Assembly: GCF_963664735.1 (NCBI RefSeq)
Contig: NZ_OY761553.1
Span: 4,461,001-4,525,000 of the forward strand
Origin: an uncultured Cohaesibacter sp.
GTDB lineage: Bacteria; Pseudomonadota; Alphaproteobacteria; Rhizobiales; Cohaesibacteraceae
DNA: 64,000 bases
Direction: 5' to 3'
Shown here: positions 32,165 to 54,073 of the stretch, in pieces
Numbering within the stretch: position 1 is the first letter of the stretch
Layout of the letters: each line of letters starts with the position of its first letter
Program-made: the position numbers and the translations under genes
Notes under the pieces: model-generated
What the model saw: the letters and a program-made list of their open reading frames with translations, nothing else
What the model was told of the DNA's origin: nothing
Databases searched by the model: none

Positions 32165-33103
32165 ATGATAAATATGACGAATGCTGTCAGAATCGCCTGT
32201 ATCGGTGAATGCATGATTGAACTGGCTCCGGCTGGAGAAGGACTCTTCAAACAGGGCTTCGCTGGAGACACCTTCAACACCGCAGCTTACCTTTCCCGGC
32301 AATTTTCTCCTGAAATTGAAGTCTCATACATAACCGGGCTAGGCGTTGACCCCATGAGTGAGGGGATCCGCAAGGCGTTGGAGAATGAAGATATTCTGAC
32401 GGACTCTGTGACTGTCGTTGAAGACAAAAATCCCGGTCTTTACATGATCGAGAATGACGACACCGGAGAACGCTTCTTTACCTACTGGCGCAATGACGCT
32501 GCTGCAAAGAAAATGTTTGATGGCTGGTCGGCGGATCAGATTGCCATTTTGCTTGGGCAATTTGATGTGATCTATTTCTCCGGCATCACTCTGGCTATTC
32601 TTGATGATGCTCAGCGGACCGCGCTTTTTGATGCGATTGCCAAGATTAAGGGCAAGGTCAAAGTTGGGTTTGATCCAAATTACCGTCCGAAACTGTGGCC
32701 GGATTCCCAGATCTGTCGCGCTGTGTTCGAACGGGCTGCCGCATTGAGTGATTTTGCCTTGGTAACCGCTGATGACCATGTGGCCCTTTGGGGGCAAGCT
32801 GATGGTCTTTCCATTGCCAAGCAGTGGAAGGGCTATGGCGCTGATGAAGTCGTGGTGAAAGAAGGGGCAGATAGCTGTATCCTGTTTGCCGGGGATGACG
32901 TCAAGAATGTTCCTCCGGCAGCAAAGTTGAAACCGAAAGATACCACAGGAGCCGGAGATTCCTTCGCTGCCGGGTATCTGGGTAAACGTGCTCTGGGTGG
33001 AGCACCAGAAGAGGCCGCCAAGACGGCCCATGGCGTCGCGGGGCAGGTGATAATGCATCCCGGCGCAATTATTGATAAATCAGTTTGGACCCGCGTTAAC
33101 TAA
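32165..33103 (+). CDS. kdgK: 2-dehydro-3-deoxygluconokinase
   Basis: 312-aa PfkB-family kinase phosphorylating 2-keto-3-deoxygluconate (KDG) to KDPG. It has an N-terminal IACIGECMIELAP, the substrate-lid segment FNTAAYLSRQF, VGFDPNYRPKLW and the catalytic DTTGAGDSFAAGYLG (about 260-275). KDG is the common product of uxuA, uxaA and kduD, so this step joins all branches. Start at ATG 32165 or ATG 32174; no clear RBS decides. It is followed after 11 bases by eda. Confidence 0.95.
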   Translation: MINMTNAVRIACIGECMIELAPAGEGLFKQGFAGDTFNTAAYLSRQFSPEIEVSYITGLGVDPMSEGIRKALENEDILTDSVTVVEDKNPGLYMIENDDTGERFFTYWRNDAAAKKMFDGWSADQIAILLGQFDVIYFSGITLAILDDAQRTALFDAIAKIKGKVKVGFDPNYRPKLWPDSQICRAVFERAAALSDFALVTADDHVALWGQADGLSIAKQWKGYGADEVVVKEGADSCILFAGDDVKNVPPAAKLKPKDTTGAGDSFAAGYLGKRALGGAPEEAAKTAHGVAGQVIMHPGAIIDKSVWTRVN

Positions 33104-33114
33104 AAGGATCGATC

Positions 33115-33747
33115 ATGCGTGATCTGGTTTCCAGCATCTGTAAAGGTGCAAAAGTCATCCCCGTTGTTGTTATCGAAAATGTCGAGGATGCCGTTCCTCT
33201 GGCTCGTTGTCTGGTTGATAACGGTTTGCCAGCTGTTGAAGTCACCCTGCGTACGCCCGCTGCTCTCGAGGCCATTAAGGCTATCGTGAATGAAGTGAAG
33301 GATTGCGTTGTCGGTGTCGGCTCGATCTTGTCTGAAGAGCAGCTGAAGGCTGCGATTGATGCTGGGGCTCATTTCGGTGTTTCTCCTGGCACCTCAGCAA
33401 CTCTGCTGAGCGCTCTCAAGGCAACCGACTGGCCATTCCTGCCGGGCTCTGGCACCATCAGCGAAATGATGACCCTGCGCGAAGCAGGTTTTCAGGAACT
33501 GAAGATGTTCCCTGCAAGCATCGTTGGCGGTGTTGGCATGCTCAAGGCTGTTGCCGGTCCTGTGGGTGATATCAGCTTCTGCCCAACCGGTGGCGTAAAG
33601 CCAGAAAATGCCGAGGAATATCTTTCCCAGAAAAACTGCTTTGCAGTAGGCGGCACCTGGATTGCTCCTTTGGCTGACGTCAATGCTAAAAAATGGGATG
33701 TGATCGCAGAACGCGCCAAGGCAGCAAGCAAGCTTGGTCAGGCTTAA
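33115..33747 (+). CDS. eda: KDPG aldolase (2-dehydro-3-deoxyphosphogluconate aldolase)
   Basis: 210-aa class I aldolase cleaving KDPG to pyruvate and glyceraldehyde-3-phosphate. Visible are VIPVVVIENVEDA, the catalytic Glu in VEVTLRTPAALEA (Glu42), FGVSPGTSATLL, the Schiff-base Lys in ELKMFPAS (Lys130) and SFCPTGGVKPENAEEYL. AAAAGGA precedes the ATG. It is the last gene of the uronate island before a strong terminator and may also serve the Entner-Doudoroff pathway. Confidence 0.96.
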   Translation: MRDLVSSICKGAKVIPVVVIENVEDAVPLARCLVDNGLPAVEVTLRTPAALEAIKAIVNEVKDCVVGVGSILSEEQLKAAIDAGAHFGVSPGTSATLLSALKATDWPFLPGSGTISEMMTLREAGFQELKMFPASIVGGVGMLKAVAGPVGDISFCPTGGVKPENAEEYLSQKNCFAVGGTWIAPLADVNAKKWDVIAERAKAASKLGQA

Positions 33748-50832: not shown

Positions 50833-50917
50833 GGCTCTTGAACCTGATTTTATTCCTCATTCTGCTTTGATAGGGATGAAATAAAAGTTATAAGCTTGCT
50901 ATATCGCAAAGCGACAG

Positions 50918-50952
50918 CGACACCCGGCGATCTCGTCGGGTGTTGCGTTTTT
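50918..50952 (+). terminator. Rho-independent terminator after galK
   Basis: CGACACCCGGCG, loop ATCT and CGTCGGGTGTTG form a 12-bp stem with two G.U pairs, followed by CG and five T. Confidence 0.85.
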
Positions 50953-51063
50953 ATGAGAATTGTGAATTTTTGTACAATTCAAGATCATTCATCGATATTG
51001 ATCTGAGGATATGCACTTTGTGCACCTATTCCTTGCTTGCACCACTTGTTGTTACATGAAACT

Positions 51064-52614
51064 ATGATGGACATGGCGCAGATTCACGACAAATTTCTAT
51101 TCCTACCGGGGCGATCTCTCGATAGCTTTGTTGGCGAAGATTTCGGCAGAATAAAGCCGACCTTTTCCAAGCCTATGGAACTGGCTGATTGCTCTTTGCT
51201 GGATATGTTTCATCAGCCTTTGCTTCGGTCAAATCGCTTGCTTGTCTCATCAGAGGGACGGCTCTATTTGTTTGGGCACGAGATGGAGCCGATCAAGCAG
51301 AAGGGACCAGCCAATGGCGGCCTTGTCTCTGGCTTGCCGAAAGGGCCTGTACGCCGGGCGCTTGATGACTTGTCGGACTTGCGGGCCTTGATGCCACTTT
51401 GCCACATGCGGATTAGCACCACCTTGATGACGCTGGTGGATGACGAGGGCAAGATTTATCTCAAGACCAGTTTCATGGACGTGCACATGCCTGACGGCGA
51501 TTGCGGGCTTATTGCATTTCTTCGGCCCGTGCGCGGATATGATAGGGCTTTGGCGCTTATGCAAGACAAGCTCACCCAGCTTGGTGCAAGCGAGATGGGG
51601 CTGGCAGCATTCTGCCAAAAGATTGATCCGTCCTTTCCCGCACGCGTTGGCAAACCCAAATTCTCGATTGATCCGTCAGAAGTCGCCTCCTGTGTTGCCA
51701 CCAGAATTATGGCCGCCTATATGCCCGTTATCCGGCTTAACGAAAACGGGATTGTCGAGGATATCGATACCGAGTTTCTGCATGATTACCGCATAGCCCT
51801 TCGCAAGATCAGATCGGTGCTGAGTTTGTTCAAGGGTATCTATTCTGATGAGCAGACCAAGGATTTGAAACAGCGCTTTTCATCGCTCATGGCCAAAACG
51901 GGACGATTGCGGGATCTGGACGTTTATTTGCTCGAGAAAAAGGCCTTCTTTTCTCTTGTGCCTGAAGCGTTGCACCCTGGGCTTTCCGAAATGTTTGCCG
52001 TTTTCTCGCTTGAGCGGGGGGAGGCAATGGAAGCCCTTGCAGATCATCTGGTCAGTGAAGGCTATCAGAAGGAAATGCAGCTTCTATCGGATTCGCTCTC
52101 TGCGCCTGATGCGCTGCAAAAAGGCCCCAAGGCCGATGAGAATGCTCATGACTATGCTTGTCGACTGATTTGGAAACGCTATCGCAAGCTGTGCAAAATT
52201 GCATCGTCGATTACCAATGACAGTCGCGATTCTGAAGTGCATGCATTGCGCATTCATTGCAAGAAATTGCGCTATCTTCTGGAGTTTTTTGCTCCAGCCT
52301 TTCCCGGTAAGGAGATAAAGGGGTTGGTTAAGCCGATGAAGCGGCTGCAGGATAATCTTGGGGCATTTAATGATTGTTCCGTTCAAATCGAAGCGCTTTC
52401 AACCTTTCTTGGTGAGCATAAATTCCGTGATAAGGCGACACAGTTGGCCATTGCACAAAGTGTTGGTGCGCTTGTCGCGATCTTGCATCAACGTCAAGAG
52501 ACGGAACGGCTTCATGTGGTTGAGAATTTCGAGCGTTTCGACAATGAAGAAACGCGGCAGATGTTCCGGGCATTGTTCAAGCCTCATGAGGGGCCTGTGG
52601 AGGAAGAAGAATGA
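51064..52614 (+). CDS. CHAD-domain protein with a CYTH-like N-terminal region
   Basis: 516 aa, no signal peptide or membrane segment. The C-terminal ~300 residues are a CHAD domain: two helical repeats with conserved basic motifs, EFLHDYRIALRKIRSVLSLF and EVHALRIHCKKLRYLLEFF, and the linking TGRLRDLDVYL and LQDNLGAFNDC. CHAD domains bind polyphosphate and locate to polyP granules in several bacteria (established knowledge). The first ~200 residues are not clearly recognisable; pieces such as DEGKIYLKTSFMDV with LRPVRGYDRAL suggest a degenerate CYTH domain, the common partner of CHAD. Start uncertain among ATG 51064, 51067 and 51073, none with a good RBS. Its TGA overlaps the ParA start. Confidence 0.85.
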   Translation: MMDMAQIHDKFLFLPGRSLDSFVGEDFGRIKPTFSKPMELADCSLLDMFHQPLLRSNRLLVSSEGRLYLFGHEMEPIKQKGPANGGLVSGLPKGPVRRALDDLSDLRALMPLCHMRISTTLMTLVDDEGKIYLKTSFMDVHMPDGDCGLIAFLRPVRGYDRALALMQDKLTQLGASEMGLAAFCQKIDPSFPARVGKPKFSIDPSEVASCVATRIMAAYMPVIRLNENGIVEDIDTEFLHDYRIALRKIRSVLSLFKGIYSDEQTKDLKQRFSSLMAKTGRLRDLDVYLLEKKAFFSLVPEALHPGLSEMFAVFSLERGEAMEALADHLVSEGYQKEMQLLSDSLSAPDALQKGPKADENAHDYACRLIWKRYRKLCKIASSITNDSRDSEVHALRIHCKKLRYLLEFFAPAFPGKEIKGLVKPMKRLQDNLGAFNDCSVQIEALSTFLGEHKFRDKATQLAIAQSVGALVAILHQRQETERLHVVENFERFDNEETRQMFRALFKPHEGPVEEEE

Positions 52615-53363
52615 AGATTGTCGCCTGCTATTCAAACAAGGGCGGTGTTGGCAAGACCGCGACTTCCGTCAATCTGGCCTATGCTCTGGCTGATAAGGGA
52701 AAACGCGTTCTGCTCTGTGATCTCGATCCGCAGGGGGCTTCGAGCTTTTATTTTCGGGTCAAGCCTTCCAAAAAACTGACCGATGAGCGCTTTTTTCGCG
52801 ATGAAGACCGGTTCGTAAGGGCTATTCGTGGCAGCAATTATGACAATCTGGACATTCTGCCTGCCAATATGAGCTTTCGGAATTTCGATGTGTTTTTATC
52901 GCGCATGAAAAATAGCCGCTCGCGCCTGAAAAAAGCGCTGAAGGCTGTCAAGAAAGACTATGATGTCATTCTGCTTGATTGCCCTCCCAACATCTCGACG
53001 CTCTCGGAAAGTGTCTTCAAGGCTGCCGACGTCGTGCTGGTGCCTGTTATTCCAACGACGCTGTCGCAGCGTACGTTCGAGCAACTGGTAGACTTTTTTC
53101 GTGAAAACAAGATTCCGCTCAAAAAGCTCGCGGCTTTTTTCTCCATGGTCCAGAATGTGAAATCGCTGCATAGCGAGATGATGGACGAGTTGTCGGGCAA
53201 ATATAAGAGACAGTTTCTGGCCGCTCAGGTGCCTTTCACCTCTGACATTGAGCGGATGGGTGTGCATCGGGCGCCCGTGCTGGCCAGCGCTCCGGCATCG
53301 GCTGCGTCAAAGGCCTATCGGGATCTGTTTAAGGACGTGAGTAAGAAGGTGTCTCTGAAATGA
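52611..53363 (+). CDS. ParA/MinD-type ATPase in a polyphosphate-domain operon
   Basis: 250-aa deviant Walker ATPase without an N-terminal HTH. It has CYSNKGGVGKTATSVNLAYAL with the signature Lys (about 6-26, shown across two family blocks), Walker A' LLCDLDPQGASS and Walker B DVILLDCPPNIS. C-terminal basic residues in KAYRDLFKDVSKKVSLK could give nonspecific DNA binding. Short ParA proteins like this (McdA/PpfA-like or type Ib) move cargo over the nucleoid. No ParB gene or parS-like repeat is nearby, and this is not a replication locus. It overlaps both neighbours by ATGA, so it is probably made in ratio with the CHAD and CYTH proteins. Confidence 0.85.
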   Translation: MKIVACYSNKGGVGKTATSVNLAYALADKGKRVLLCDLDPQGASSFYFRVKPSKKLTDERFFRDEDRFVRAIRGSNYDNLDILPANMSFRNFDVFLSRMKNSRSRLKKALKAVKKDYDVILLDCPPNISTLSESVFKAADVVLVPVIPTTLSQRTFEQLVDFFRENKIPLKKLAAFFSMVQNVKSLHSEMMDELSGKYKRQFLAAQVPFTSDIERMGVHRAPVLASAPASAASKAYRDLFKDVSKKVSLK

Positions 53364-53863
53364 GCAAAATGGCTGATTGTACGGAAATTGAACGGAAGTT
53401 TCTTATTGAAGCGCTCCCAGAATTGAAAGGGCTCAAATCTTCCGATGTTGCGCAGGGCTATTTGACGACAGCCAAGGATTCGGTTGAGATCAGGCTGCGG
53501 AAAAAGGCAAAAAGCGGGAATACCGCCTTCTTCATGACGCTTAAGTCCGATGGAGCGCTTGAGCGGATGGAAATAGAGGTGCCGGTGAGCGAGGAACAGT
53601 TTGATAGTTTCTGGCCTGCGACGGTCGGGCGCCGGGTGGAGAAAACGCGTTATGTTGGCGCGTTAAGCGATGAGTTGAAGTTCGAGCTGGATGTATTTCA
53701 CGGCGACCTTGATGGATTGACGCTGGTTGAGGTCGAGTTTCCCTCTCTTGAAGCTGCGGACCATTTCAACGCTCCAGCCTGGTTTGGCAAAGATGTTACC
53801 GCCGATCGGGCTTACAAGAATAAAGCGCTTGCGGTCAATGGGAAACCGGAAATGGCCCGATAG
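53360..53863 (+). CDS. CYTH-domain triphosphate tunnel metalloenzyme
   Basis: 167-aa CYTH protein. It begins with the metal/phosphate ExExK motif in CTEIERKFLI (about 7-16), then GYLTTAKDSVEIRLRKKAK, FFMTLKSDGALERMEIEVP, FELDVFHGDLDGLTLVEVEF and ADRAYKNKALAV. Single-domain bacterial CYTH enzymes hydrolyse tripolyphosphate or related triphosphates, or act as adenylate/thiamine-triphosphate enzymes. It is translationally coupled to the ParA-like gene and completes the CHAD-ParA-CYTH operon. Which triphosphate it uses cannot be read from sequence. Confidence 0.9.
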   Translation: MSKMADCTEIERKFLIEALPELKGLKSSDVAQGYLTTAKDSVEIRLRKKAKSGNTAFFMTLKSDGALERMEIEVPVSEEQFDSFWPATVGRRVEKTRYVGALSDELKFELDVFHGDLDGLTLVEVEFPSLEAADHFNAPAWFGKDVTADRAYKNKALAVNGKPEMAR

Positions 53864-54073
53864 GGACTCTGTAATCATTCCAGTTCATTTCGTTGAGGCT
53901 GACTATGATACTTGGTTTGCAGATATAAGACTTTTTTGAATGAAATATTCCTCCTATAGCATACTAATGTTATGGGAACTATTTTTGTAAGCAATGTATC
54001 TTTTGCTGTTTTTGTGCTCTCCTTTCTCTTGTCTTTACAGTTTTAAAGACTGCGGAGGAAACAGGAGTATCTG

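Follow-up and report, generated by a model that had tools for sequence, protein, structure and literature searches.

A CHAD–ParA–CYTH gene cassette shared by distant bacteria as a candidate ParA-driven module for polyphosphate bodies

We analyzed a stretch of 64,000 nucleotides from an uncultured Cohaesibacter sp. (the window, G000:C1:4461001-4525000 of a genome assembled as one contig of 4.94 Mb), in which the genes of a CHAD protein, a ParA-like ATPase and a CYTH enzyme follow one another on the same strand, and found that this CHAD–ParA–CYTH cassette moves as a unit between distant bacteria. Among 80 named loci from related genomes, the CHAD gene lies immediately upstream of the ParA gene on the same strand in all 80 and the CYTH gene immediately downstream, again on the same strand, in 57, in Alpha-, Beta- and Gammaproteobacteria. 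The unit may serve in the ParA-driven placement or partition of polyphosphate (polyP) granules that carry a coat of CHAD protein, a reading to which we give a probability of about 0.5 and in which we infer the contact between ParA and CHAD, the use of the nucleoid and the motion of the cargo. In addition, we report here that ribbon-helix-helix (RHH) genes of two types lie upstream of CHAD in relatives, type I together with the operator-like palindrome TGACGTCA and type II with GTATATAC, and that the window's lineage has lost both the RHH regulator and the operator while retaining the trio.

Conservation and co-inheritance of the cassette

Out of 373 relatives in named genomes, the 80 with the highest ParA similarity were taken as the named loci, so that counts drawn from them apply to near relatives of this ParA; kinship was ignored in these counts. 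They span Rhodobacterales, Hyphomicrobiales, Alcaligenaceae, Nitrosomonas, Neiella and other Gammaproteobacteria. The ParA start lies at -7 to +10 nt relative to the CHAD stop, and at -4 in 45 loci. The 57 CYTH genes include two that are frame-split (L048, 6758-7320; L067, 6495-7223), and the 23 loci scored as non-matches include one (L069) that ends too early. A preliminary description of this DNA had made its reading depend on the conservation of the trio beyond close relatives, and the trio is conserved to that extent, since it is co-inherited as one unit in distant bacteria. The coordinates and domain calls that it gave for the three genes agree with the open reading frame (ORF) calls and with Pfam, and the ATGA overlaps that it had pointed out at both junctions are present (52611-52614 between CHAD and ParA, 53360-53363 between ParA and CYTH). 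Such overlaps are ordinary for operons; it is the conservation of the neighborhood that exceeds chance. One locus labelled Enemella evansiae (L060) has a ParA that groups with that of an alphaproteobacterial metagenome-assembled genome (L055), and its label may be wrong or its contig foreign.

The trees of ParA, CHAD and CYTH share groups that cut across bacterial classes. In particular, nine loci mixing Nitrosomonas, Paracoccus, Shinella and Falsochrobactrum form one such group, recovered as splits of 9, 9 and 8 members in the ParA, CHAD and CYTH trees, respectively, and a group of five gammaproteobacterial loci is exact in the ParA and CHAD trees and has one extra member in the CYTH tree. 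The tree distances of the three genes also correlate (r 0.77, 0.63 and 0.55; 0/999 permutations as high; 56 loci), although shared descent alone raises such correlations and the mixed-class groups are therefore the stronger point. A ParA tree of 149 sequences, built by a quick method and rooted at the midpoint, in which long branches were flagged and from which rows shorter than 200 residues and five duplicates of L005 or of the window's locus had been removed, separated 126 ParAs, including that of the window, from 23 more ordinary ParAs that were assumed to be Soj-like, with a Shimodaira–Hasegawa-like approximate likelihood ratio test (SH-aLRT) value of 100. Within the 126, every row of an inner trio clade (93/93; SH-aLRT 92) adjoins CHAD, as do 7 of the 33 in its sister set, at several deep places.

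Copies were also found outside chromosomes. This ParA is carried by six Paracoccus plasmid records, and the two of these regions that were opened are annotated hypothetical-CHAD-AAA ATPase-CYTH-NUDIX; the plasmid collection holds nine records in all with this ParA at E 1e-40. Plasmid pMAQU02 of Marinobacter nauticus VT8 (L178, 4001-4747) bears a stand-alone ParA, 38% identical, about 3.6 kb from phbB, a gene of PHB synthesis. Other stand-alone relatives (L162 and L165 in G766 and G754, L147, L148) adjoin a Pit phosphate transporter gene, and L165 also a PhoU-like gene.

Draws of genomes at successive ranks gave the wider distribution. At the level of the family, ParA matched (E <=1e-20) in 12 of 20 genomes, the window's included; CHAD and CYTH flank 11 of these, and the twelfth, a distant ParA (L014), has neither. 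The ParA of one Cohaesibacter genome (G003) is identical to that of C. haloalkalitolerans (L046). In the class draw, 57/385 genomes matched at E <=1e-28; among the 30 matches for which loci were listed, CHAD adjoins the four best (those of the window, L017, L018 and L019), and the 26 weaker ones have no CHAD within ~1.5 kb, the distance to which the flanks of wider relatives were viewed, except at 20 places that were followed beyond it. Of the 398 genomes in the phylum draw, 68 carry this ParA family (E <=1e-55), and a CHAD gene occurs anywhere in the genome in 57 of the 68 vs 145 of the 330 others (odds ratio 6.6, kinship ignored).

The three proteins

By its motifs and its modeled fold, the window's 250-aa protein is a ParA/MinD family ATPase. 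The motif KGGVGKT (signature lysine K10, and K15) and the aspartates of Walker A' and Walker B (D37, D39, D118 and D123) are invariant in 11 sequences of the genus, and the same residues are invariant in 43 sequences, save T16 at >=90%. The structure model (mean predicted local distance difference test score, pLDDT, 81.4, with two stretches below 50) found Soj/ParA entries as its ten best matches, with template modeling (TM) scores to the query of 0.77-0.81, and its structural matches include BcsQ and FleN. The protein has no helix-turn-helix (HTH) extension, as described earlier. Two basic residues, K184 and R220, are invariant in the ParA alignment and lie near the positions aligned with the DNA-binding arginines of Soj, and the net charge of the last 100 residues averages about +4. 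Within the genus, ParA is better conserved than the other two members of the trio, with identities to the window of mostly 86%, compared with 63% for CHAD and 70% for CYTH.

The CHAD protein is composed of a probable, degenerate CYTH/triphosphate tunnel metalloenzyme (TTM)-fold domain (about residues 6-196), which was missing from the three-domain picture drawn at first, followed by a long CHAD domain (about residues 194-509). Residues H240, R243, R247, R283, R403 and Y404 match H253, R256, R260, R296, R418 and Y419 of the Chlorobium protein of known structure, CtCHAD, whose mutation cuts polyP binding (PMC6537752). Five of them (R243, R247, R283, R403 and Y404) are invariant in 51 sequences and H240 is kept at >=90%, and on the strength of these residues the protein likely binds the polyP surface. 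The genome that holds the window has a second, weak CHAD match (26.6 bits) at another place (L002, G000:C1:510411-510728), within a frame of 374 aa.

The PDB sequences closest to the window's CYTH protein are 2FBL/3TYP, that is, NE1496 of Nitrosomonas europaea (E 5e-46), and the CYTH protein that the cassette of N. europaea (L059) encodes shows full identity with these structures over 151 residues. We take NE1496 to be NeuTTM, given the species, the family and the matching residues. The EIERK motif occupies residues 9-13 of the window's protein, and Y34 and K62 are invariant, together with the ExExK residues, in the 11 genus sequences. NeuTTM has been described as a specific inorganic triphosphatase, in which Tyr-28 and Lys-52 are the suggested dyad (PMC3440374). 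As judged from homology, the window's CYTH protein is likely a tripolyphosphatase, an orthologue of NeuTTM with the suggested Tyr/Lys dyad kept. Accordingly, the polyP chemistry that the preliminary description had proposed for the system holds for two of the three proteins, through the binding residues of CHAD (PMC6537752) and the NeuTTM orthology of CYTH (PMC3440374), and its CYTH enzyme as a general processor of short polyP gives way to an orthologue of a specific tripolyphosphatase.

Two types of RHH genes and their operator-like palindromes

An intact RHH gene of type I lies just 5' of CHAD in 43 of the 80 named loci, and partial, divergent or decayed forms occur in five more, including that of N. 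europaea. The type I protein comprises a core of ~60 aa and a lysine-rich tail (KKNTSLRL...KTLKALKIRAIEEDTSVQKIIE; mean charge +3), so that, where present, RHH may carry the kind of basic tail that is described for ParA partners. Pfam gave one RHH_1 match above its cut-off (L052) and sub-threshold RHH matches for others, and a profile search of PDB with the RHH alignment returned chance-level matches only. A gene of type II takes the same place in seven of the 80 loci and in L173; by our reading of its alignment it also encodes an RHH protein, one member having a sub-threshold RHH_9 match and one having no match. Two of the 80 loci lack upstream sequence, and in the 78 that can be scored an intact RHH of either type precedes CHAD in 50 and was not found in 28, in which ParA and CHAD nevertheless persist. 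In N. europaea (L059, 4200-4490), only the last part of the RHH gene matches 5' of CHAD and TGACGTCA is intact; partial matches were also seen in L071, L077, L082 and L124.

Each type has its own palindrome. Of 45 regions preceding type I genes, nine were short or redundant and were set aside; the 36 that remained, two of them from plasmid loci that are not among the 80, include 33 with TGACGTCA, and no 8-mer exceeded six regions in 60 shuffles. The palindrome is present in 41 of the 47 loci that have type I and in 2 of the 31 that do not (Fisher 2.8e-13, kinship ignored), in a table of 78 loci from which L093 and L101 were dropped, since they lack 300 nt of upstream sequence, and in which the seven type II loci count as having no RHH; elsewhere it occurs 13 times in 902 kb. 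Most loci have one or two sites, and at most four when one mismatch is permitted, placed at the promoter and forming no arrays. Similarly, GTATATAC lies upstream of all eight type II genes that adjoin CHAD, and no 8-mer exceeded three in 100 shuffles. A type II homologue with an upstream GTATATAC also occurs at L064 (3183-3527), a locus that has a type I RHH at CHAD. These observations suggest that RHH is an exchangeable autoregulator rather than an obligate ParB or cargo adaptor, because two regulator–operator pairs occupy one slot and have been lost repeatedly; RHH as an obligate ParB was rejected on the loci with no intact gene and on the window itself.

Within Cohaesibacter, both RHH and TGACGTCA are retained in G009 and G010, the two deeper members, and RHH was not found in 9 of 11 trios: around the CHAD start of the window and of eight other trios neither RHH type nor an exact operator site was found, and searches of these nine genomes found no RHH of either type elsewhere. 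In the window itself, profiles of both types found nothing near the trio, no TGACGTCA occurs in the 500 nt upstream of CHAD, and no direct repeats were found. The earlier statement that no ParB or parS-like repeats are adjacent therefore stands for the window and fails for the system, in which RHH genes are common; likewise, the three-gene operon holds in the window, and a fourth, autoregulator-like gene is widespread in relatives and lost in the window's lineage. Far from the trio, the window has TGACGTCA in exact form at two places (32896-32903 and 33675-33682), a number reached in 14 of 100 shuffles. A Cohaesibacter genome without the trio contains a weak type II match (G001:C25:406654-406821, E 4.7e-7).

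Locus layout and neighboring genes

The features of the locus are collected in Table 1. Alternative starts for the CHAD gene are a TTG at 51037, which would add nine residues, and further ATGs downstream of 51064. The search for terminator-like hairpins found seven in the region, as against 4.4 in shuffles.

Table 1. Features of the CHAD–ParA–CYTH locus (positions in the window)
Feature	Position	Strand	Remarks
CHAD protein gene	51064..52614	+	ATG start, 516 aa; Pfam CHAD E 1.2e-56, C-terminal part only
CHAD protein, N-terminal domain with CYTH-like fold	51064..51660	+	ExExK catalytic motif not seen
ParA-like ATPase gene	52611..53363	+	250 aa, without HTH; KGGVGKT deviant Walker A; Pfam AAA_31 E 1.1e-42
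CYTH/TTM enzyme gene	53360..53863	+	167 aa, EIERK motif, NeuTTM (NE1496) orthologue; Pfam CYTH E 2.4e-6
Terminator-like hairpin 3' of galK, upstream edge of the trio unit	50917..50946	+	13 pairs, then a T run
Terminator-like hairpin 3' of CYTH	53952..53977	+	weak alone

No polyphosphate kinase adjoins the trio, as had been stated: the genome has a single PPK1 match, at C1:449650, and the trio is at about C1:4512064. PPK1 is present in 17/17 good-quality genomes of the window's family, and in 19/20 overall. Clustering of flanking ORFs in the 80 loci showed that, beyond the trio, only antisense frames, an ABC-transporter family (near the trio in 25 loci, at varying positions) and a local synteny of Ruegeria and its kin are shared, and it found no other widely conserved family around the trio. 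Nudix (by sequence in 10/80 named loci, directly downstream on the same strand in 7) and a SixA-type phosphatase (6/80 with the best query) were considered as extra parts and set aside as too patchy. Small Nudix genes 3' of CYTH on the same strand were seen in L098, L105, L118, L065, L086, L092, L093, L176 and L179. A toxin–antitoxin or phage-defence cassette was also rejected: PADLOC gave three matches to ParA (best E 7e-10, over the P-loop), one weak match to RHH and none for CHAD, CYTH or Nudix. No RNA element was found, as Rfam gave no match at the gathering score between 50000 and 55000 of the window.

Proposed mechanism and alternative explanations

We propose that the cassette may be a mobile, ParA-driven module for polyP bodies. 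The CHAD protein would coat the surface of the polyP granule, an ATP-bound ParA dimer would bind a scaffold that extends through the cell, most probably the nucleoid, and the CHAD-coated granule would switch ParA, so that granules would be spaced and inherited by both daughters. The CYTH enzyme would remove tripolyphosphate formed as polyP is trimmed, a role that leans on the activity of the N. europaea orthologue. In many relatives, RHH would repress the operon through the operator ahead of its own start, as may be expected because the RHH gene and the operator are linked, and ParA might in addition be stimulated by the lysine-rich tail of RHH. The fuller version of this scheme would be a horizontally transferred ParA partition system dedicated to an inorganic polymer: CHAD-coated polyP would be spaced and inherited over the nucleoid, with a built-in tripolyphosphatase and an exchangeable RHH–operator switch that sets dosage. 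This version is tentative, and we would place it a little short of even odds.

Several observations weigh against the positioning of granules. The DNA-binding residues R189 and R218 of Bacillus subtilis Soj align with V183 and D212 of this ParA, near its invariant K184 and R220. The CHAD protein does not begin with a basic stretch: over its first 30 residues the charge averages -0.9 (range -6 to 6) in 51 sequences with starts chosen by us, and its N-terminus is ordered from about residue 10; known ParA partners have a positively charged, disordered N-terminus, as described in PMC10241942. CYTH is not directly 3' of ParA in 23 of the 80 loci, and it lies on the opposite strand in L017, L019 and L171. 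In the order draw, ParA (E <=1e-35) occurs in only 7 of 297 genomes, all of the window's genus, and the distribution of the trio is thus sporadic. CHAD is adjacent in at least 7 of the 68 phylum-draw genomes with the wider ParA family, most of which have no adjacent CHAD, and two plasmid relatives (Pontibacter and Marinobacter, 38-43% identity) have no annotated CHAD alongside. In addition, PPK1 occurs even in those genomes of the window's genus that lack the trio, so polyP synthesis does not need the trio.

Some of these points would be expected if ParA were an ATP-driven switch on the polyP machinery instead of a positioner, binding the CHAD protein or its CYTH-fold domain as BcsQ and FleN bind their partners and controlling assembly, access to polyP or the tripolyphosphatase without a nucleoid gradient. 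The Soj-type arginines are not at the aligned positions, CHAD has no canonical ParA-partner tail, and BcsQ and FleN are among the structural matches of ParA. The CHAD domain of YgiF moreover stimulates the TTM activity of YgiF itself (PMC6537752). We nevertheless regard a switch as rather unlikely, in view of the retained ATPase-switch residues, the invariant K184 and R220 with the basic C-terminal part of ParA, and the description of the ParA/MinD family as organisers of cellular cargo in PMC10241942.

The RHH gene and the conserved palindrome upstream in many relatives, the lysine-rich RHH tail, the copies on six Paracoccus plasmids and the varying surroundings of the cassette would all suit a type Ib partition cassette (a short ParA with an RHH centromere protein) on mobile DNA, to which CHAD and CYTH had been added and in which the operator would be the centromere. 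However, no intact RHH was found in 28 of the 78 loci or in 9 of the 11 Cohaesibacter trios, the sites are few and at the promoter rather than in arrays, the constant partner of ParA is CHAD and not RHH, and only nine plasmid-collection records hold this ParA, so we consider this origin very improbable as an account of the system. Also improbable is a metabolic or stress operon for phosphate or a metal, such as the copper proposed for other CHAD proteins, with ParA as a co-expressed passenger: loss of YgiF lowers the copper resistance of Escherichia coli (PMC10892726), and some wider ParA relatives adjoin a Pit gene, in one case with a PhoU-like gene, but ParA does not look like a passenger, because it is the most conserved of the trio and is never apart from CHAD in the 80 loci, though these were picked by ParA similarity.

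Relation to known systems and significance

The proposed placement of granules follows the same logic as that of the carboxysome-positioning system McdAB, in which a small ParA-like ATPase gene likewise lies beside that of a would-be cargo-coating protein. The two differ in that the motif is SGGQGKT in McdA (PMC9178275) and, with the signature lysine, KGGVGKT here, and in that the CHAD protein is structured and without a McdB-like basic tail, and its cargo would be an inorganic polymer. Type Ib partition pairs a short ParA with an RHH protein, as in ParF–ParG and delta-omega, and shares with many relatives of the cassette the promoter palindromes; here, RHH is dispensable, the sites are few, CHAD is the constant partner and neither RHH nor a repeat array was found in the window. 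The CHAD phosins (CtCHAD, the R. eutropha proteins and YgiF) differ in another way, since this CHAD protein has a CYTH-fold domain without ExExK and its unit adds a separate CYTH gene and a ParA. NeuTTM is matched by the cassette CYTH proteins as described above, although a word search of the main text of PMC3440374 returned neither CHAD nor ParA.

The number and spacing of polyP granules in Pseudomonas aeruginosa are affected by AlgP (PMC9239181, PMC13052382), which is a histone-H1-like protein, and the accessible part of a review names no ParA for polyP. In Acidithiobacillus, a folD-ppk-parA-CHAD neighborhood has been published as gene context (PMC10892726), with parA beside CHAD and with ppk1; the accessible text calls that ParA a plasmid partition protein and proposes no positioning role, and we liken it to the cassette by gene context, not by tree placement. 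Within the open-licence literature, as far as its texts were accessible and with subscription papers and bioRxiv outside that scope, we found no proposal of a ParA role for polyP. If confirmed, the ParA–CHAD–CYTH unit would be a variant of known ParA–cargo systems.

The spacing and inheritance of polyP granules appear to be poorly understood, and the example given in the accessible part of a review is the histone-like Pseudomonas protein. The conserved ParA–CHAD unit offers a concrete candidate for granule placement that can be deleted, for example in the laboratory strain Paracoccus denitrificans DSM 413 (L079), whose locus has the four genes RHH-CHAD-ParA-CYTH, and the cassette gives NeuTTM a genetic setting.

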